Shown here in pieces: positions 1-37,558 of a stretch of 37,558 nt of DNA. The stretch comes from a virus, in the IMG/VR virus record IMGVR_UViG_3300042317_000627, positions 1 through 37,558 of that record. One strand, given 5' to 3'. A program made the position numbers and the translations under genes. How positions within the stretch are numbered: the first letter of the stretch is position 1; each line of letters starts with the position of its first letter. A model generated the notes under the pieces. It was not told where the DNA came from. It saw nothing but the letters and a program-made list of their open reading frames with translations, and made no database searches.

Positions 1-127
1 ATTAGATTAATGTCGGGGCTTTCGCCCCTCCTATACAAGGGTCAGGTGGTCACAGACGCCGCGCGCACCGAAGTTCACGTTCGAGGACGTCGGCGAGTAG
101 AGCCAGACCGAAGCGCGAGAACCGGAG
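1..127. repeat. Terminal direct repeat, left copy
   Basis: The first 127 bases are identical to the last 127 (37432-37558). The repeat starts outside the target gene and ends inside its variable repeat, so it respects no gene boundary. A length of 127 is a common assembler k-mer size, which favours a circular molecule cut at an arbitrary point over a true virion terminal repeat. The inferred unit length is 37,431 bp. Confidence 0.95.
15..28 (-). other. GAAA-loop hairpin downstream of VR (DGR target-site hairpin)
   Basis: On the minus strand GGGGC-GAAA-GCCCC forms a perfect 5-bp GC stem with a GAAA tetraloop. It begins 20 nt past the end of the variable repeat and just after the target stop codon. 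In the Bordetella phage BPP-1 DGR a hairpin/cruciform downstream of VR promotes retrohoming, and this one matches in position and loop type. It lacks a following T-run, so a terminator role is less likely. Confidence 0.7.
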
Positions 128-1374
128 CTCGCAGCCCCATTCCAGATGCCCCCGAGAAGCACGGCGTTCTCCATTTGGTAAGTGCTACCACGCCCTTGCG
201 TGTTAGCAACATAAGCCGCAGCAGCCGCGCCACCCCCAAACTCATCACCCCAAATCCACATACAGCCAGTGGCTTGAATAACACCAAACTTACTGGTAAA
301 TAGATTCCATGCGCTCGTTGCACCTGTACCTGATACGCCAGTAGTTGGCACGTCAGTACCGCCGCTAGAAGTGGCTTCAGTCGTACCATAAGCCAGTGCT
401 GCAAACTCTGAATAAGTCGGGCTGCGTTTACCTACATGCTTCAATGCCTCGTTGAGATTCCACCAGTTACCATCGGCATAAGTTGTAGTGCCATTGCCAC
501 CGTATAGCGTTGAACGTTTAGGCGGTGCTGAACCATCTGCAATGGATACGTTGTACTTGCTTGAGCCGTTGGTTAAATAATCCACACCAAGCAAGTAAAT
601 ATCAGCCCAAAAGCTATCAGCAATTAAAGCCATACCGCGTGGGTCTGAGCAGGCAGGTCTAAACTTTAAATCCCATATTGAGTAGGCGTTAATGGCTGGG
701 GTAGTATCACCCCCAGCCTGTGCCGCAGCCACACCACCGGGCGCATAGTGAAAGCCGCCTATCTGACGGCTATTGCTAATGGTGTAACCACTAGGCGCAG
801 TAAAGCTTGCATCAGCTCTCACTGTTCCGTCAGTACAAACATAGATCGCGTAGTCAGTACCAGCGGTTAAGGTTGGCATGACAATGACGGTTTGCGTTGC
901 AAAAACCTGCAAGGTATCAGCTACCTCAATTTTGGCACCTGCTTTAATCGAGATAGTGCCAGCACCAGTTTTAATGAATGCGACTGTTTTAATGTCTGCT
1001 TTATAAAATAGTCCAGGCACGCTACTTAATAACTCAATCTTGTCATAGAGTGCATTTTTTGTAGGAACTTCAAGTGAGGCGTTCCATCCTGCACCGTAGG
1101 CCTCATCAGGCACAGAAATATCACCGGTAAATGTACCGCCTTCTACGCCAAAAGCTGCTGATGAAAGAGTGCCTTTATTAACCCATGCGCTATTTGCAGC
1201 ATTTCGTATTTTAAGTATTCCAGAGGTTGAATCTGCCCACCATTGGAATGGGTAAGTTGTTGTTGGCTCTGTTGCGCCAGAATTGTTTGAAACTAATGCC
1301 GCCAGGTGAGCGTTTATATCTACGAGAAAACTCGCGCCATCCTGGTCGGCAACTTGCATATCGCTTTGTGCCAT
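31..1374 (-). CDS. DGR-diversified tail-fibre/tip adhesin with C-type-lectin-like C-terminus
   Basis: A 447-residue protein. Residues 1-75 resemble the N-terminal part of phage tail fibres (motifs SNNSGAT, QWWAD, LKIRNAAN). The C-terminal part from about residue 235 looks like the formylglycine-enzyme/C-type-lectin fold used by DGR targets, ending in WIWGDEFGG, GSRAS and GARGVCDH motifs close to BPP-1 Mtd. Residues 403-442 are encoded by the variable repeat, and eight of them (410, 413, 416, 423, 425, 426, 430, 435) differ from the template coding. The ATG follows an AAAGGGG Shine-Dalgarno and abuts the gpJ stop. The inferred role is receptor binding at the tail tip. The stop codon lies only 3 bp from the GAAA hairpin. 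Confidence 0.9.
   Translation of the reverse strand: MAQSDMQVADQDGASFLVDINAHLAALVSNNSGATEPTTTYPFQWWADSTSGILKIRNAANSAWVNKGTLSSAAFGVEGGTFTGDISVPDEAYGAGWNASLEVPTKNALYDKIELLSSVPGLFYKADIKTVAFIKTGAGTISIKAGAKIEVADTLQVFATQTVIVMPTLTAGTDYAIYVCTDGTVRADASFTAPSGYTISNSRQIGGFHYAPGGVAAAQAGGDTTPAINAYSIWDLKFRPACSDPRGMALIADSFWADIYLLGVDYLTNGSSKYNVSIADGSAPPKRSTLYGGNGTTTYADGNWWNLNEALKHVGKRSPTYSEFAALAYGTTEATSSGGTDVPTTGVSGTGATSAWNLFTSKFGVIQATGCMWIWGDEFGGGAAAAAYVANTQGRGSTYQMENAVLLGGIWNGAASSGSRASVWLYSPTSSNVNFGARGVCDHLTLV
49..168 (-). repeat. DGR variable repeat (VR)
   Basis: It aligns without gaps to TR at 36918-37037 (offset 36869). The 11 mismatches are at 72, 86, 87, 99, 101, 102, 107, 108, 128, 137 and 146. In every case the TR minus strand has A. 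I count 24 template adenines in the block, so 11 of 24 are changed and no other base is. The last 23 bases (49-71, GC-rich) are identical and should hold the initiation-of-mutagenic-homology element. Confidence 0.96.
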
Positions 1375-4300
1375 TTAGTACCCCTTTGCGTGATAATCGA
1401 ATGTTCTATTAACTGGGCTGGCTGCCACGTTAAAAAACTGAATTGAAAAGCCTGTGTTTGTTTTGCTGCTGATCGTATAGTAATCACCGGTTTGCATATT
1501 TTGCGCAGTAATGCCTAGCGCGGGTGATGCCATAAATGGCAAGCTGTAGGTAATCGGATAAGCTGAAGTGCCGCTGGCAATATCCTCGCCAAACTGATCG
1601 CGGTCAGGCATGTCAACAGTAACAGCGAGCGATTTAATAAGTACATTATGCGTTTGGCTTTGACTTGATAACTCGGCCTTAAACTGAAAGGCGCGGGCTG
1701 TCCAATCCCCTACATAAAATGGCTGCCATGCAGACCAAACTGGTGAAGCTAATGGGTTATCATTGGTTGTGCGTACAAATAAAGATGCGCCAACATCGCT
1801 AATATTTGCGCCTGATATACCACTCCAAGTGCTAATCAAACTACGTTGACCAATAAAGTCATTGGCATCAAACCCCAAAACTTCAAATAATGCAGTTAAG
1901 CGCGAAGTTTGCACACTGCCTAAATCAATGTTGCCATCAAATAGATAGTTTCCTGCTGGCTCAATGCCGCCCTCAGCGGATAGATAACCCAGCCCACTTA
2001 TTAATCCCCATTCTGAAATATTACTTATAGATGTAAGCTTTATACCACCGCGTATTGCATCATAAACTGTATTAGTTTTTACACCTGCAAACACTGGCGA
2101 TTCTGTTACCGTTTCTACCACATTCATGGTGATTAGGTTAGCAACATTACTGACAATGCCAACTTCATTAATAGAAGCATTACCGCTTGAATCTACCCAC
2201 TTAGCCAAATAAGTGCCAGTTAAAAGTGGCAGCGTAGTGCTGGTGGCATTGCCAGCAATTTGGTTGCCAATATCAGTGGCAGACGACCATGTTGGTGTCA
2301 GCATTTCAGGCGTATAGCGCATTTGTAAATAGCCGCCAACAATCACATCTAAATCTGTGGCTGGGTTCCATTCTAAATGCGCAAATCCTGAAAGTGCCAC
2401 CATTTGCAAATTAATCACATCATTTGGTGCAATAGTTTTGCCATAAATAGTGACGTTTATAGATTGTGGCTGTGAGCGCCTACCCAATGAGTTTTGAGCA
2501 TATAGCGTAAATACATAATCCCCCTCAACAAGCGGCTTAACATCAACGCTGGTATCTTTAGTCGTAATTGTTACAGGGTTTTCATTAGCTGTTGAATAAA
2601 CCAGCACGTAATTACTAATACCTGGCTGGTTATTCCATGAAACTGTTGCTTGCACGCCAACCACGCCAATGCCTACTAAATATAATGATTCAGTTACATT
2701 TAAATTTTCAGGCACAGAGGGCTGTCCAGAATTTACAATACTTGTTGGTAATGCCTCAAGTATTAACCCATTTTCAATAGCTGCATATTTATCTGCACGG
2801 TATTCAAGTGCCACAATTTGAACTTGCGTCTTATCTGTTTCTGCAATTGAAACTACACGCCATGATTCAGGGATTAAATCATTGACTGAAATAATCCACA
2901 TGGCATAAACCAGTGGCATAGTTGAAAATGCTGCTGAAAGATTAATTAGAGTATGAGAACCAATTGCATTAGTGATGCTGCGCGTTTCAATGCTGCCATC
3001 TTCAAGGCGGCATGATATTTCGTAAGTCTTTCCAGTTTCAATCGTGATAGCAGCATCAAGCGTCACTGTATAAACATCCGCAGCTACAATACGGCCACCC
3101 ATACGCTTACCAGCGCGATTTGGATCGTTTATTTGAATGATCTGCCCAGCCTGTATAAATACTGAATCTAGCCCAGCCTTAAAGCTTACTGTTTCAGTTT
3201 CCATCTGCTCGCTAAATAATATACTACGCCCAGCCCTATGCGCCTGCCCACGGGATGTGCAGCCAACTGACACCACCTCAGTTTGCACGACGCCATAGCG
3301 TGTGATGGCTTCATTATCTGAAACATACTCAATTTTAGGCAGGTAGTTGTCTTGCGGGTCATTCCAGGTAACTAGCGCAACGGTATGGCGTACTTTTGCA
3401 CTTGAGCCTGAGTAGTTAAACATGCCATCTACAACATTGGCTTGGCTAAAAATCTGTGCAACGTCTTGCGGCGCATCTTGCGAAACATACAACGCGCCTG
3501 ATGACCAATACACCATCGCACGAAATATTGATGCAATATTGGTGATGACCTGATAGGCCTGCTCGCGGGCTTGAATATATAAGTTACAAGTAAATCGAGG
3601 TTCAACGCCGCCAAAACCATCATCAATCATGACATCACAATATTGTGCGATTGAATACAAGCCCCATTTATCTACCATGCTTTCAGTGATTAAATCACCA
3701 ATTCCATAGCGATCATTGGTTACAATGTCATAAAACACCCATGCAGGGTTGTCAGTCCATGCTATATTAAATGTGCCATCCCAAGTACCAGTATATTCAC
3801 GGGTCAATGGGTTATAGTTACTTGGTATCTTTACTTTAAGGCCTTTAATCTCAAAGCCACGTACAGGTATACGGTTGAACTGCTTGGCATCAATCTGCAT
3901 GCCAACTAGTGCAGAGTTTGGATAAGTCAGTTTTGCGTCAATAATCTCAGTGAAACTATCCCAAAATGTTTTATTTTGCAATGAAAGCACAGCACTATCT
4001 GCTGTGATGCGGCGAACACGAATATCCCACTCGCTTCCTGCTGGCAACTCAATACGGTATGAGCGCTGATATTTTGAGGTGGTTTTACCGCTAATAGTAT
4101 CGTAATAAAGAGGGCTGTATGCCTGTGAAGTACCTATTGAAACGGCACCAGATCCGCTAAGTTTAACTACTCTAAATTCATAAAATCCGTCTGCGAATGA
4201 TAAATTAAATGTGGTAGATGAACTTGGTGGAACGGTGACATAACCACCAAATAGCTGGCCCCATTGTTGATTGTATTGTTTTTGCTGTACCGAGCCTTTA

Positions 4301-4992
4301 CCAGTAAAGCTATGATTGGCATAGTCAATCCATGTGCCACTGCCTACAGATCTATACTGAAGTTTAAAGCTAATAGTTTGATAGCTGGTATTGACTAAAC
4401 CGGTCCAATTAACCCCTATTGTAAATTGTTTGGCTGTAATTGTATTTTTAACGTAGCCATTAGCATCAGCAGCAAGAGATGACCATACTCTACGCATCTC
4501 TTGCGAAACAAAGCCTCCGCCATCTGTTTGAATATCAATGGCAAGGTCAACACTCGTGCCATTAATATCCCCATTAGTGGTATTTTGCTGTGTTAGTTGA
4601 GGTACAGATAAAGTGACACGAACCGCTGTATTATTTGAGTTAGTGATTGAACGTGTAGCGGGGGATGCCTGCTTAATCTCAACACCTACTGCAGATTCGG
4701 CTTCAGCCCCACCAAAACCAGCAATATGATTTTGTGATTGCGTGCCAGTACGCGATGAAATGGTTACGCCTTGAAAGTTATAAGTACCATCAGCATTTTG
4801 CAGGGGCGTATCGTCTAAATATACAGATTTTGCGCCATCAACAAGCCCTTCAATTTCACCCTCACTAATGAGGTCAAGTACATTAGCATATTGTATTGAG
4901 CGTAAATTATCAGGCGACTCAACGGCAATGCGAGCGCTACCACCGCCTCCACTTTTACCACCGCCGCCGTAGCCTTTAATATTTTTAGTCAT
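1375..4992 (-). CDS. J: Tail tip / host specificity protein, lambda gpJ-like
   Basis: A 1205-residue protein opening with a glycine-rich segment (GGGGKSGGGGS) and a region typical of phage tip-attachment proteins (LRSIQYANVLDLISEGEIEG). The middle part contains the conserved tip core around residues 390-640 (RGFEIKGLKVKIPSNYNP, WVFYDIVTNDRYGIG), and fibronectin-III-like strands follow after about residue 750. In lambda gpJ forms the central tail tip and binds the receptor. Here it overlaps the gpI-like gene by 4 bp upstream and abuts the DGR target downstream, so receptor contact is probably shared with or handed to the diversified protein. Confidence 0.95.
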   Translation of the reverse strand: MTKNIKGYGGGGKSGGGGSARIAVESPDNLRSIQYANVLDLISEGEIEGLVDGAKSVYLDDTPLQNADGTYNFQGVTISSRTGTQSQNHIAGFGGAEAESAVGVEIKQASPATRSITNSNNTAVRVTLSVPQLTQQNTTNGDINGTSVDLAIDIQTDGGGFVSQEMRRVWSSLAADANGYVKNTITAKQFTIGVNWTGLVNTSYQTISFKLQYRSVGSGTWIDYANHSFTGKGSVQQKQYNQQWGQLFGGYVTVPPSSSTTFNLSFADGFYEFRVVKLSGSGAVSIGTSQAYSPLYYDTISGKTTSKYQRSYRIELPAGSEWDIRVRRITADSAVLSLQNKTFWDSFTEIIDAKLTYPNSALVGMQIDAKQFNRIPVRGFEIKGLKVKIPSNYNPLTREYTGTWDGTFNIAWTDNPAWVFYDIVTNDRYGIGDLITESMVDKWGLYSIAQYCDVMIDDGFGGVEPRFTCNLYIQAREQAYQVITNIASIFRAMVYWSSGALYVSQDAPQDVAQIFSQANVVDGMFNYSGSSAKVRHTVALVTWNDPQDNYLPKIEYVSDNEAITRYGVVQTEVVSVGCTSRGQAHRAGRSILFSEQMETETVSFKAGLDSVFIQAGQIIQINDPNRAGKRMGGRIVAADVYTVTLDAAITIETGKTYEISCRLEDGSIETRSITNAIGSHTLINLSAAFSTMPLVYAMWIISVNDLIPESWRVVSIAETDKTQVQIVALEYRADKYAAIENGLILEALPTSIVNSGQPSVPENLNVTESLYLVGIGVVGVQATVSWNNQPGISNYVLVYSTANENPVTITTKDTSVDVKPLVEGDYVFTLYAQNSLGRRSQPQSINVTIYGKTIAPNDVINLQMVALSGFAHLEWNPATDLDVIVGGYLQMRYTPEMLTPTWSSATDIGNQIAGNATSTTLPLLTGTYLAKWVDSSGNASINEVGIVSNVANLITMNVVETVTESPVFAGVKTNTVYDAIRGGIKLTSISNISEWGLISGLGYLSAEGGIEPAGNYLFDGNIDLGSVQTSRLTALFEVLGFDANDFIGQRSLISTWSGISGANISDVGASLFVRTTNDNPLASPVWSAWQPFYVGDWTARAFQFKAELSSQSQTHNVLIKSLAVTVDMPDRDQFGEDIASGTSAYPITYSLPFMASPALGITAQNMQTGDYYTISSKTNTGFSIQFFNVAASPVNRTFDYHAKGY

Positions 4993-13538: not shown

Positions 13539-13572
13539 AAGTGTAAATACTTAAGGCGAAGTCTTAACAGTT
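13539..13572 (-). repeat. 34-bp dispersed repeat, copy 1 (possible late promoter/operator)
   Basis: It matches 18383-18416 at 33 of 34 bases. On the minus strand it contains TTAAGA, 16 nt, then TACACT, a weak promoter-like pair, and a TTAAG...CTTAA dyad. It lies 35 bp upstream of the capsid start and overlaps the preceding gene's stop codon. Confidence 0.7.
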
Positions 13573-14563
13573 AAAACTGGCGTAATAATAATAGCTCTGC
13601 CTCATCTTTACGGCGGCGCATTAAACGCTTGCGGATGTAAAGCTCGGCATCACCTACGGTGGTACTTTCAATGAGTGGGTTGTCATTTTCATCAAGCGGC
13701 AATGCCCACAGTATGGGTGGCATCCATGCGGGGCGTGGTTTAGTAAGTATTTTTGGTTTGCGTGGTTGGAATATACCGCCGCCAGCGCTATTACTTATAA
13801 TGTCATGTAGCGTACCCATGACAACGCCACTAATGATTGACGCTGTAGCGGTTAAATCACCGCTAGTTTCAAATGTTTTAAATCGAGTAGCAGCGCCATT
13901 TATAGCGCCCAATTGTCCAGTCAGTGAGCCGCTAGTCGCATGGGTAATAATAGCGCCTGATCGTACTGCAGTACCGTTAATACTACCTAACTGGCCAGTG
14001 AGTGCGCCATCAGCAATAAAGGCGCGATAATGAGTAGCGCTACCAACAATGGCTGATAGTTGACCAACGAGTGCACCACTAGTCGTAAAGGCTCTAAATC
14101 GACTACTTATACCTACAATAGTCCCTAGTTGACCAGTGAGTGCGCCACTGGTCGCAAAAGTGCGGTAACGAGTAGCGCTAGCAATAATGGATGAGGGCTG
14201 GCCAGTGAGTGCGCCACTGGTCGAATGAGTAATAATCCCTGCAGCCCTCGCAGATGATCCTATAACTAAGCTTGATTGACCTATTAGGGCGCCAGTAGTA
14301 TTAAATACCCGATAACGTATGCCACTGCCGCTAATAGTAGATGACTGGCCAACTAAATTACCATTGGTTACATGGGATACTGCCCCACCTATAGATGCCC
14401 AGGTGCTTAAACCTAATACCGCATCAACTGGCTGGCTTGTTGCGCTTGCGCCAGTTGCAAACTGGCTATGTTCTAGCCCATCCTGCAGTACGAATGTATT
14501 GGGGGTGGCTGGTGTAGCAAAGGCATCATTAGCGATAACGCCATCAATGATGACTAATGCCAT
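13571..14563 (-). CDS. Repeat-containing putative virion protein
   Basis: 330 residues. The N-terminal 60 residues are unique. Residues 66-249 hold about eight units of 23-26 residues built on TSGALTGQ-x-x-x-I-x-G-x-A-x-RYR. The C-terminal 75 residues are basic and proline-rich, then charged (RPAWMPPILWALPLDENDNP, RKRLMRRRKDEAELLLLRQF). I recall repeats of the SG-x-L-x-GQ type in uncharacterised proteins of other tailed prophages. Its place between the portal and capsid suggests a head decoration or fibre-like role, which I cannot prove. Confidence 0.8.
   Translation of the reverse strand: MALVIIDGVIANDAFATPATPNTFVLQDGLEHSQFATGASATSQPVDAVLGLSTWASIGGAVSHVTNGNLVGQSSTISGSGIRYRVFNTTGALIGQSSLVIGSSARAAGIITHSTSGALTGQPSSIIASATRYRTFATSGALTGQLGTIVGISSRFRAFTTSGALVGQLSAIVGSATHYRAFIADGALTGQLGSINGTAVRSGAIITHATSGSLTGQLGAINGAATRFKTFETSGDLTATASIISGVVMGTLHDIISNSAGGGIFQPRKPKILTKPRPAWMPPILWALPLDENDNPLIESTTVGDAELYIRKRLMRRRKDEAELLLLRQF
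13817..14368 (-). repeat. In-gene tandem repeats encoding TSGALTGQ units
   Basis: Degenerate tandem units of mostly 69 bp, with two longer ones carrying an extra IITHA/S segment, encode residues 66-249 of the protein above. Sequence such as ccagtgagtgcgccact recurs nearly unchanged along the region, so slippage or recombination could change the copy number. Confidence 0.8.
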
Positions 14564-18382: not shown

Positions 18383-18416
18383 AAGTGTAAATATTTAAGG
18401 CGAAGTCTTAACAGTT
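18383..18416 (-). repeat. 34-bp dispersed repeat, copy 2
   Basis: It is nearly identical to 13539-13572 (one T/C difference). Here the minus-strand repeat encodes the last residues (KTVKTSP) of the upstream small protein, then crosses its stop and ends 19 bp before the start of the next gene. The same TTAAGA-16-TACACT arrangement is present. Confidence 0.7.
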
Positions 18417-22225: not shown

Positions 22226-22247
22226 TTTTTAATCCTTTTTAAATGTT

Positions 22248-22519
22248 GTGCAGGGTGTGCAGGGTGGTGTGCAGGGTAAAAATTCTATTTTTTCTTTATA
22301 AATCAAGGTGTGTGCAGGGTGTGCAGGGTGTGCAGGGTGTAATGTGTTGCGCGTGAGAGTAAAAATATTATTTATAGTATTAAAAATAATTTGTTGCGCG
22401 TGCGTGCGCGCATTGTCCCTGCACACCCTGCACAAAACCTCTGAAATCCTTTGTTTATAAGGCTTTTCGGTGTTTTTAACACCCTGCACAGCACCCTGCA
22501 CACCCTGCACACCCTGCAC
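22248..22519. repeat. Iteron-like array of 12 nine-bp repeats around an AT-rich core (candidate origin)
   Basis: Forward copies of GTGCAGGGT lie at 22248, 22257, 22269, 22312, 22321 and 22330. Reverse copies (ACCCTGCAC) lie at 22416 (one mismatch), 22425, 22481, 22493, 22502 and 22511. The six-plus-six opposed halves enclose an AT-rich stretch at about 22359-22391, itself flanked by an 11-bp direct repeat tgttgcgcgtg (22345 and 22392). The array sits immediately after the primase-helicase gene. Opposed iterons plus an AT-rich core are typical of replication origins; the role here is inferred. The whole gap 22226-22524 is this array and no convincing gene. Confidence 0.8.
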
Positions 22520-22524
22520 ACTTA

Positions 22525-31726: not shown

Positions 31727-31762
31727 AAAATCCTATGCCTAATTTAATGCCTACTAAATCAA

Positions 31763-31919
31763 TGAAACAAAACGAAACGATATAAAACATAATGAATCAC
31801 CTTGAAACACATTAAGCCTTGTACTATAAGGCCTAATGAAACAAAATGAAACACTTTGAATTAATATGAAACTAGATGAAATATGTAATTGGAGGCGCGA
31901 ACCGCACCGAGAATTACAT
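31763..31919. other. Candidate attP with arm-type repeats
   Basis: The AT-rich gap beside int has TGAAAC at 31763, 31803, 31837, 31847 and 31867 plus near-matches, fitting arm-type integrase sites. At 31883-31919 an 8-bp perfect inverted repeat (ATGTAATT / AATTACAT) flanks a 21-bp GC-rich core (31891-31911) that on the minus strand contains GGTTCGCGCCTCC, reminiscent of a tRNA or tmRNA 3' end. This core is the best attP crossover candidate. It is inferred, and the host site is not in the window. Confidence 0.55.
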
Positions 31920-34858: not shown

Positions 34859-35314
34859 TCATTTTGTTTTACGTACCCCAATTACACGCCCTGCAAACAT
34901 TTTTCTAGGTTGCCCATCGTGTGACTTCCAGCCAAAGTTATAATCGTTATAAAAACCGAATATAGCTCTAGTCTTACCTTTAATTTGAAAGCCCTCATTC
35001 TGTGCTACGCTAAACAACTTTAAGTGCCACCCATAAGCAGTATTACGAGATAGCCACCATACTCTGCACAAGTATCTAAGTAGCCATGAGTTGTCGTAGT
35101 CATCCTGTGTCTTGTTGGTGAATAAATCATAATCGCCATACCACCCATGGTCTACCTCATGGTCAAACGTCTGCCATAAATAAAAGAATGGAATTAAATT
35201 ATCTCTACCAGAAGTCCTGACGGTAAACAGGCAGGCAATAGGGTTGGTTAGCCAGCATAGCCATGTGACTAACATTGCAGGGATAAAGTAGACAATGTAA
35301 AGTAGGTATTTCAT
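34859..35314 (-). CDS. Membrane-anchored protein, unrecognised
   Basis: 151 residues. Two hydrophobic segments open the protein (LLYIVYFIPAMLVTWLCWL and NPIACLFTV), followed by a Trp/Tyr-rich soluble part (DHEVDHGWYGDYDLF, RVWWLSRNTAYGWHLKLF). I recall proteins of this layout in lysis regions of other phages without a known role. It overlaps the tail-fibre accessory gene by 4 bp. Confidence 0.65.
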   Translation of the reverse strand: MKYLLYIVYFIPAMLVTWLCWLTNPIACLFTVRTSGRDNLIPFFYLWQTFDHEVDHGWYGDYDLFTNKTQDDYDNSWLLRYLCRVWWLSRNTAYGWHLKLFSVAQNEGFQIKGKTRAIFGFYNDYNFGWKSHDGQPRKMFAGRVIGVRKTK

Positions 35315-35784
35315 AACGACCCTGCCAGAATGAATAACCCGTCAATCTCACTGTCTGTCATGTTTAGCAATGGGATAAGTGATAGCACAAGCGCACTATC
35401 ACGGCGTACTTCTTGTGCGTATTCCCATTCAATGCGCGCAGCGTCACCTTCTGCACCCGGCATACTGGCAATTGTTGTATTGATTGTTGATAACACGCCA
35501 GCCTGAAACAAGGCCAAGCGAGCTGATCGCATAGAGACTGATTGCGGAACTGCTACCGGATCAGCCACATATACTGGAACGTCAGGCGGTGTTAGGTCTG
35601 TAAAATCAGCCACGGTGAAACCGTACTTCTCAATGGTTGTGGTATCTGTTATTAATACCCATTGCTGTGCAGTATCGTCTTTCTCAAGGCGATAGATAGA
35701 GCCTTTTAGTACATTGATAAAAGCATCATGCTCAGGTGTTCCGGCAATAGCATCTAAATCTGATCGTGTATTAATTAAGCGCAT
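35311..35784 (-). CDS. Tail-fibre-associated protein downstream of DGR RT
   Basis: 157 residues. The N-terminal half is of unknown fold (DAFINVLKGSIYRLEKDDTA). The C-terminal half has a pattern common at the ends of phage fibre modules: MRSARLALFQAGVLSTINTT, ARIEWEYAQEVRRDSALV and MTDSEIDGLFILAGSL. Similar domains occur in proteins next to fibre genes, perhaps as chaperones or attachment parts. Its start overlaps the RT stop by 14 bp, so it is translated from the same message as the DGR. Confidence 0.7.
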   Translation of the reverse strand: MRLINTRSDLDAIAGTPEHDAFINVLKGSIYRLEKDDTAQQWVLITDTTTIEKYGFTVADFTDLTPPDVPVYVADPVAVPQSVSMRSARLALFQAGVLSTINTTIASMPGAEGDAARIEWEYAQEVRRDSALVLSLIPLLNMTDSEIDGLFILAGSL

Positions 35785-36751
35785 AGCGGCTCTCCAAATG
35801 GTTAAGTAAATTGTGTGAATCAGCCCAACTTGCGTGGCCTTTCCATGAAGCGATAAATCGGGTTAATCGGTCTTGCTCATTGTGAGCAGAGTAATTTGCA
35901 ATCTTGCGTTTAGCGCGCGTGACGGATGATTTTCTGAGCAGTTTGTGTGTAGGCCATATGCGATAACCTAAAAAGTTAATGCCTTTGTTTACTGGCGATA
36001 CTTGCCACTTACTGATCGTGAGTTTCAGTACGCTTGCGCTAAACTCAGTCAGTGCGGCCTTTGTTTCTTTCAGTAGGCCAGCGTCTTTAGAAACCACGAC
36101 AATATCATCCATGTATCTAGCCCATGCACGGTGGCCTAGGTTAAAGTGCAAGAACCTATCCGCAGCGTTACCGTATAGGTTTGCAAATATCTGACTGGTT
36201 AAGCTACCAATAGGCAGACCAAAGCCAGTAGCAGGCACCATTGAGCGGATTAGATTCATTGTTCTATCGCACACGATTTTATTTTCAATCATGCCGTGCA
36301 GTACGCTCAGGTCGATAGATGGAAAGAACTTGGCATAATCTGTTTTTAAGAAGTGAGTAGCCTCTGTCTTGCGTAGTTGGCTTTGCACAAAGCACACGCC
36401 TGCATGCGTACCTAGTCCAGTACGGCAAGCAAAGGTATTGGGCATTAGTGCATTATCAAATATGTCACCTACCACATTCACTAGCGCATGCTGCACTAAG
36501 CGGTCTTTAAAATCTAAAGCTGAGATAAGCCTAGCTTTAGGCTCATATACAATAAATTGACGATACTCGCCTTGCTGCCATGCACCAGCGAGAATAGCCT
36601 CACGAATGCGTAGCAAGTTCACTTCGTCATACTCTCTAAATTCTAAGTAGCCGAATGACTTTGTTTTGTTTAAGGCGGTTTTTCGGTACGCTTCGCGCAG
36701 GTTCTCAATGCTGGCGATGCGCTCGATTAAGTTGTTATAGCGTTTACCCAT
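35771..36751 (-). CDS. DGR reverse transcriptase
   Basis: 326 residues from ATG 36751; the frame is open to 36823 but the protein then starts MGKRYNNLIERIAS as usual for DGR RTs. Motifs: first catalytic aspartate in FLKTDYAKFFPSID (D138), the DGR-type motif 4 IGSLTSQIFANLYGN at 181-195 in place of the QG of other RTs, YMDD at 213-216 and the thumb-proximal GYRIWPTH at 262-269. All catalytic residues are present. It copies TR RNA into mutagenised cDNA together with Avd. Confidence 0.97.
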   Translation of the reverse strand: MGKRYNNLIERIASIENLREAYRKTALNKTKSFGYLEFREYDEVNLLRIREAILAGAWQQGEYRQFIVYEPKARLISALDFKDRLVQHALVNVVGDIFDNALMPNTFACRTGLGTHAGVCFVQSQLRKTEATHFLKTDYAKFFPSIDLSVLHGMIENKIVCDRTMNLIRSMVPATGFGLPIGSLTSQIFANLYGNAADRFLHFNLGHRAWARYMDDIVVVSKDAGLLKETKAALTEFSASVLKLTISKWQVSPVNKGINFLGYRIWPTHKLLRKSSVTRAKRKIANYSAHNEQDRLTRFIASWKGHASWADSHNLLNHLESRYALN

Positions 36752-37037
36752 GATATGCCAGCCGCGCCTTTCTCCCCATAGGGATACTCGGCGGTGTGCT
36801 GAACCTCTTAGTGTATTCGCCAAAGCAGGACAACATGGCTGACCACATTATTTTACTAGGCCTGCTTGCCACCCCGTAGATATGGCAAAGCGTATTACTA
36901 ACCTCTTTTATTACATCGTCACAGACGCCGCGCGCACCGATGTTCACGTTCGAGTTCGTCGGCGAGTTGTTCCAGTTCGAAGCGCGAGAACCGGAGTTCG
37001 CAGCCTCATTCCAGTTGCCCCCGAGAAGCACGGCGTT
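36752..37037 (-). ncRNA. DGR template RNA region (TR plus spacer to RT)
   Basis: The segment from the avd stop to the RT start contains TR and then a 166-nt spacer (36752-36917). In BPP-1 the RNA spacer between TR and rt folds and primes cDNA synthesis, and this spacer is of similar size. It shows no convincing gene. Precise RNA ends cannot be seen. Confidence 0.75.
36918..37037 (-). repeat. DGR template repeat (TR)
   Basis: A 120-bp block aligned to VR at 49-168. Read on the minus strand it is rich in AAC codons (eight sites encode Asn, Glu or Ile where VR has other residues), which is the layout that lets A mutation reach many residues without creating stops. It begins at the avd stop codon and ends 167 bp before the RT start. 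Confidence 0.96.
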
Positions 37038-37419
37038 ATTGCCCATGTTGCCCTTTCCGCTTCACTCGTTTAATCCAACCACCTACCATGGCACCCACCT
37101 CCGCAAGCAAAGTTAAAGCTACTTGGTACTGGTGAATGGTCATGCCCCGGAGTTTGTTTCCTGAGATAAAGCGAAACCAAAACCGCAGATTAGCTAACCC
37201 TGCATCTGCGGCATAAACTTTTGAGATTTGATTAGACTTACCTGCTTGGTCAAAAAGCTCTACCTGCCCTAGTAATGCACGAATGAACATATCACGCGCA
37301 ACACCGTGTTTACGCGCCATATTTTGCGCGATAGGGTAGCAATAGTTAATGACAGTCTCGTACTTTTGCACGATAGCCATTTGTTCGTAGCTCACTTCTT
37401 GGTCAACAACTAAGTCCAT
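37036..37419 (-). CDS. avd: DGR accessory variability determinant
   Basis: 127 residues, the usual Avd length. Helical throughout (VSYEQMAIVQKYETVINYCY, VARDMFIRALLGQVELFDQA, LRGMTIHQYQVALTLLAEVG) with a basic C-terminus (GWIKRVKRKGQHGQ), as in the four-helix-bundle pentamer that binds RT and nucleic acid. Its TAA lies inside the first bases of TR. Position between target and TR is the classic DGR order. Confidence 0.93.
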   Translation of the reverse strand: MDLVVDQEVSYEQMAIVQKYETVINYCYPIAQNMARKHGVARDMFIRALLGQVELFDQAGKSNQISKVYAADAGLANLRFWFRFISGNKLRGMTIHQYQVALTLLAEVGAMVGGWIKRVKRKGQHGQ

Positions 37420-37431
37420 ATCTCACTTTCT

Positions 37432-37558
37432 ATTAGATTAATGTCGGGGCTTTCGCCCCTCCTATACAAGGGTCAGGTGGTCACAGACGCCGCGCGCACC
37501 GAAGTTCACGTTCGAGGACGTCGGCGAGTAGAGCCAGACCGAAGCGCGAGAACCGGAG
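37432..37558. repeat. Terminal direct repeat, right copy
   Basis: Identical to bases 1-127. Joining the copies gives a continuous target gene and target-to-avd junction, so the DGR is intact in the closed form. Confidence 0.95.

Follow-up and report, generated by a model that had tools for sequence, protein, structure and literature searches.

How does a diversity-generating retroelement (DGR) of the type known from Bordetella phage BPP-1 come to lie directly behind the central tail fibre gene of a lambda-like siphovirus, and does it work there? The window, i.e., the whole stretch of DNA analyzed here, comprises the 37,558 nt of IMG/VR record IMGVR_UViG_3300042317_000627. Since positions 1–127 are identical to 37432–37558, the window was treated as circular, with an assembly length of 37,431 bases. 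The elements of the DGR are as follows:

36918–37037, minus strand: template repeat (TR), identical in the related contigs L006–L009
49–168, minus strand: variable repeat (VR), with 17 differences from that of L009, every one at a TR adenine
37432–37558, no strand: terminal repeat of the circular assembly (exact, 127 nt), with its end inside the VR
37036–37419, minus strand: avd (Pfam bAvd, E = 1.8e-29; 4dwl, 8ub7; PHROG 3206)
35771–36751, minus strand: reverse transcriptase (RT) from its ATG (RVT_1; PHROG 1423), in an open frame that extends to 36823
36757–36891, minus strand: phage DGR spacer RNA (Rfam RF03022), 100.3 bits, full length
15–28, minus strand: hairpin GGGGC-GAAA-GCCCC, 20 nt past the VR, with a copy at 37446–37459 in the terminal repeat
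36–69, minus strand: GC-rich 3' end of the VR and the next bases, similar to the 3' end of the BPP-1 VR

The first-pass annotation, made from the sequence alone, had reported a gapless TR/VR alignment of 120 bp in which each of the 11 mismatches falls at one of the 24 TR adenines, with eight altered residues in the target protein. Realignment gave the same result: 120 nt without gaps and 11 mismatches, 11/11 at adenines of the TR sense strand (n = 24), a restriction with a hypergeometric P of about 2e-9. Identity was lost immediately on both sides of the block. The eight residue changes from TR to VR in the target are N410I, E413G, N416S, N423V, N425L, N426Y, N430S and I435F. There was no second VR in the whole record, and the TR had just one additional match, namely the piece of the VR that is duplicated in the terminal repeat. 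A chance repeat or an ordinary duplication was ruled out by the adenine restriction together with the comparison of VRs between relatives (see below).

The remaining parts that had been claimed, namely Avd, an RT with IGSLTSQ and YMDD motifs, and the order target-avd-TR-RT, were likewise recovered, the order when the window was read as a circle through its terminal repeat. Avd matches the Bbp7/Avd protein of BPP-1 (4dwl and 8ub7). The RT has IGSLTSQ at 205 and YMDD at 237, corresponding to the [IL]GxxxSQ and YxDD motifs of the DGR clade, and was placed by Pfam and PHROG 1423 in the phage DGR RT family, in which its kin with adenine-biased TR/VR pairs include BPP-1. The RF03022 spacer RNA lies between the TR and the RT, the hairpin that follows the VR has a GRNA-type loop (GAAA) on a 5-bp stem, and the region at 36–69 may have a role like that of the BPP-1 IMH. 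The presence of all these parts supports the assignment of the element, at the sequence level, as a complete BPP-1-type DGR, in agreement with the first-pass annotation. A scan of GTDB with the RT for a host retrieved only distant relatives, and the host was not found.

If the element operates like that of BPP-1, the RT-Avd complex would reverse-transcribe the TR RNA, together with the adjoining spacer RNA, and place random bases in the cDNA wherever the template has an adenine; up to about eleven residues of the C-type-lectin adhesin would be altered, and receptor recognition would consequently vary. Both the cDNA biochemistry and the effect on tropism are carried over from BPP-1.

An open reading frame of 100 aa (36744–37046, starting ATGGGCAATAAC) reads through the TR in the frame of the VR and overlaps the end of avd. 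Its start is conserved among close relatives. It was considered as a gene over the TR and rejected, having no Pfam family and lying in the VR frame, and is probably incidental.

Relatives were collected as IMG/VR contigs with an RT 97–100% identical to that of the window. In L007, L008 and L009, the TR is identical to that of the window, while the VR has 14 mismatches to the TR, 14/14 at adenines, which differ from the mismatches in the window. The first-pass annotation had proposed comparing the VRs of related genomes against a fixed TR, and this comparison bore it out: the VRs of the window and L009 differ at 17/24 TR-adenine positions and at 0/96 positions elsewhere; by chance, all 17 differences would be confined to the 24 adenines with a probability of about 2e-15. 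Eleven VR codons were changed, of which 11 were nonsynonymous and 0 synonymous, compared to 28 synonymous and 4 nonsynonymous changes in the RT and 2 synonymous and 0 nonsynonymous changes in avd. The stretch from the VR to avd is identical in the two, as is the TR. Between relatives, the TR is thus constant and the VR is altered solely at TR-adenine positions. Over 63 TR/VR pairs, adenines accounted for 93% of the mismatches, but this share is biased because the pair finder favours adenine mismatches, and it was not counted as evidence.

The ends of the window fall within the VR, and the terminal repeat stops directly in front of a mutated TR-adenine site (position 128); a random cut would fall beside such a site with a chance of about 6e-4. 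The cut resembles a fork in the assembly, as VR variants in the sample would produce. The contig L006/L097 also ends inside the VR, and among 44 related contigs, 7 had ends in the 178-nt VR zone (1.3 expected; P = 3e-4) versus 2 in the TR zone. Because assembly ends can have other causes, the clustering counts as supporting evidence only, and the contig ends at the VR are indirect signs of within-sample diversity.

We considered the possibility that the DGR was formerly active and is now silent, with RT, Avd and repeats persisting behind a shortened hairpin that is inefficient for homing. In BPP-1, a GRNA-loop hairpin is required, stem deletions reduced homing and the optimum is 8–10 bp, and the stems listed for phage DGRs are 7–10 bp (Guo et al. 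2011, PMC3240598). The 5-bp stem of the window falls short of the BPP-1 optimum and may weaken homing. However, the RT and Avd are intact, with mostly synonymous changes, the contig ends cluster in the VR, and the diversified relatives L006–L011 share the 5-bp stem, yet the VRs of the window and L009 differ at 17 adenine sites. A silent element is therefore unlikely, and the sequences indicate that the DGR very probably works. A sister cassette, in L012, has after its VR (348–367) an 8-bp stem, GGCGGGGC-GAAA-GCCCCGCC, compared to 5 bp in the window lineage, and the two offer a natural contrast in which the effect of stem length could be tested.

The target of the DGR and its neighbor are located as follows:

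31–1374, minus strand: target gene, encoding a 447-aa Mtd-like tail adhesin (PF21916 mtd_2nd; match to 1yu0)
1123–1374, minus strand: N-terminal module of the target, residues 1–84 (PHROGs 29834, 24121 and 21249)
1375–4992, minus strand: gpJ, central tail fibre (PHROG 31, E = 1e-288)

Residues 120–446 of the target align with residues 54–380 of Bordetella phage Mtd (1yu0, E = 2e-139), with ≈65% identity to the BPP-1 protein, a stretch that includes the second domain (PF21916) and the C-type-lectin domain. No match to the N-terminus of BPP-1 Mtd was found in the target; residues 1–84 instead match a gpJ-adjacent tail module. By alignment, the target is thus a Mtd homologue through its body, but not over its full length. 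An AlphaFold model of the target had a mean pLDDT of 57.8, in which the N-terminal module was predicted with moderate confidence (about 30–69), the linker (residues 72–118) with low confidence and the second domain well. The C-type-lectin part had low confidence and its fold was not resolved, and homology to the solved Mtd structure was therefore used instead of a fold search. The N-terminal module presumably serves as the docking part of the adhesin. The module is also present in Prochlorococcus and Roseobacter phage proteins and is thus widespread in itself.

The window has the gene set of a lambda-like siphovirus, with a gpA-type terminase, a lambda-family portal, a tail tube and a tape measure, as well as homologues of gpL, gpK, gpI and gpJ, and encodes an integrase. 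The first-pass annotation had described the target as a tail adhesin following gpJ in a lambda-like siphovirus, a tail context unlike that of BPP-1. The Mtd homologue does lie directly after a lambda-type gpJ, and the assignment to a lambda-like siphovirus stands; the context alone, however, is not new, since Mtd homologues are known with siphovirus-type tail genes (S-CBS1, S-CBS3 and P12026).

Several other repeats were observed in the window. GAAAC-rich repeated units beside the integrase gene (31761–31881) are perhaps arm-type integrase sites. Three tandem 69-nt repeats (13972–14223) in a 330-aa ORF encode repeated GxLTGQ-like motifs. Dense TGTGCAGGG repeats, mutually inverted, occupy a short ORF that adjoins the primase gene (22247–22521), and a 34-nt direct repeat (13539–13572 and 18383–18416; 97% identical, 4.8 kb apart) is found in the head gene region.

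Three siphoviruses related to the window (L103–L105; 67% identity in gpJ and 76–80% in gpI, gpK and gpL) encode a 217-aa protein after gpJ that shares residues 1–84 of the target, with 52–54% identity, but has a different C-terminus. A DGR RT was looked for in L103 and L105, and none was found. The same N-terminal module also occurs on a 506-aa protein in L169, in which a search for a DGR RT was likewise negative.

The closest DGR relatives, on the other hand, are mostly other phages, the exception being L006/L097, which belongs to the phage of the window itself (99.99% identity across 14.5 kb). An otherwise unrelated phage has an RT with 99% identity to that of the window. Compared to L009, the window contains a shared cassette with 96.4% DNA identity over 3130 nt (3.13 kb), consisting of the Mtd body, VR, avd, TR, RT and orf157, with edges that are sharp to a few bases:

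35304–37431, minus strand: first part of the shared cassette, 96.4% identical to L009, continuing at 1–1002 on the circle
1–1002, minus strand: second part of the shared cassette, matching L009 DNA
996–1008, minus strand: left joint, at the F-x-KAD motif of the target, where the identity to L009 starts
35304–35320, minus strand: right joint, in the first codons of the DUF7338 gene, where the identity to L009 ends
34859–35314, minus strand: DUF7338 gene (PF24027)
35311–35784, minus strand: orf157, last gene of the cassette, with a protein 96% identical to that of L009

Outside the cassette, there was no DNA similarity between L009 and the window, and the DNA of the window gpJ had no match in the closest DGR relatives. 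L009 encodes a 2494-aa protein (a large virion protein) before its target, reminiscent of BPP-1, and has a distant match to a packaged DNA stabilization protein; these two features suggest that the L009 phage is probably a podovirus. No match to a tape measure or tail tube was found among its scanned proteins.

The sister siphoviruses share gpJ and the N-terminal module with the window, but end in a different C-terminus and yielded no DGR RT in the genomes searched; recombination inside the target gene is therefore the most likely way in which the cassette was gained. In this event, a siphovirus protein encoded next to gpJ would have contributed its N-terminal module, fused in frame to the Mtd body, which would have brought avd, TR and RT behind it and replaced the C-terminus of the resident protein, while a near-identical cassette would serve a podovirus-like phage. 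We estimate a probability of roughly 90% that the element is a BPP-1-type DGR whose cassette was acquired as a unit by recombination.

Fusions of this kind were surveyed across IMG/VR, GTDB and phage loci, which supplied 64 targets. These have 13 to 839 residues ahead of the Mtd body, in a part that is of many types. A gpJ-type N-terminus was found in 11/64 targets, based on single-linkage clustering of the N-termini without composition correction, from which only the gpJ-type cluster, in agreement with tblastn, was used; Mtd bodies fused to such an N-terminus occur in L015, L044, L048, L059, L072 and L089. The gpJ-type N-terminus requires 6–7 changes on the RT tree and 7 on the body tree, as counted on quick trees without bootstrap and by a measure blind to gains versus losses. 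Well-supported branches alone gave at least 5 partner changes on each tree.

Alternatively, the cassette might have descended vertically along with the tail genes and then been lost by the sister siphoviruses, as the co-occurrence of gpJ-type N-termini and Mtd bodies in other siphovirus-like loci could indicate. This scenario is disfavoured, and we consider it very unlikely: the near-identical RT belongs to an otherwise unrelated phage, whereas the closest gpJ proteins reach just 67% identity and come from genomes in which no DGR was found, and the gpJ-type rows are scattered on both the RT and body trees. Just as unlikely is an assembly chimera, in which cassette reads from the podovirus-like phage were joined to a siphovirus that had no cassette, for although the left joint is present in one assembly only (an exact search of IMG/VR, from which records very close to the window may be missing, found no second copy) and the window is cut within the cassette, the cassette is 96.4% rather than 100% identical to that of L009, the right joint is also seen in the separate contig L097, the fusion is in frame, and similar gpJ-type fusions exist in the six loci listed above.

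The presence of nearly the same device in an otherwise unrelated phage suggests that mutators travel between viruses as ready-made plug-in parts. With this shared cassette, the related siphoviruses that lack it, and a joint that separates the N-terminal module from the diversified lectin part, the window provides a clean natural example of mutator movement. A bolder proposal, which we advance tentatively and consider somewhat less than an even bet, is that BPP-1-type DGRs constitute a standard plug-in unit with preferred joints, one at the conserved F-x-KAD motif with which the Mtd body begins and the other, in this group, at the start of the DUF7338 gene. If so, phages with differing tail types in one community would swap self-diversifying receptor-binding heads while keeping their own docking domains. 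The sequence sets assembled here allow testing of which domain joints occur and whether they are clustered.

The order of the element, target-avd-TR-RT, corresponds to the mtd-avd-TR-brt order of the BPP-1 DGR. The differences are that the first ≈120 residues of the target do not correspond to the Mtd N-terminus, that the DGR of the window resides in a lambda-like siphovirus, and that the stem has 5 bp, compared to 8 in BPP-1. As in the window, Mtd-like tail proteins are found in Synechococcus phages S-CBS1 and S-CBS3 and in Marinomonas phage P12026, with tape measure genes close to the Mtd-like gene in S-CBS3 and P12026; the identity of these proteins is only 37–42%, and RT and avd are unannotated in the stretches viewed. 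A Mtd-like C-terminus is also found in the tail fibre gene 17 of two Escherichia phage T7 records (LR745707.1 and LR745708.1), which are presumably laboratory constructs.

The mode of transfer has precedents as well. In the kappa prophage of Vibrio cholerae HE-09, a 2.9-kb BPP-1-type unit consisting of RT, atd, TR, VR and part of mtd was fused to the resident tail fibre gene, three further fused targets were mentioned, and the target ORF was named as a preferred recombination target (Schillinger et al. 2012, PMC3521204). The phage and tail fibre are different from those in the window, for which, unlike HE-09, both sister genomes that lack the cassette and an otherwise unrelated phage that carries it with 96% identity are known. 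A global survey described DGR targets with a C-terminal C-type lectin and varied N-terminal domains, inferred that DGRs are frequently transferred and, given how modular the targets are, proposed intragenic recombination (Roux et al. 2021, PMC8144416). While that survey argued from the range of architectures, the window resolves one event to the joint. With precedents for both the DGR and its mode of transfer, the window is a clear new example of target-gene fusion, in which the new elements are the otherwise unrelated phage with a near-identical cassette, the related genomes without it, and the resolved joints.
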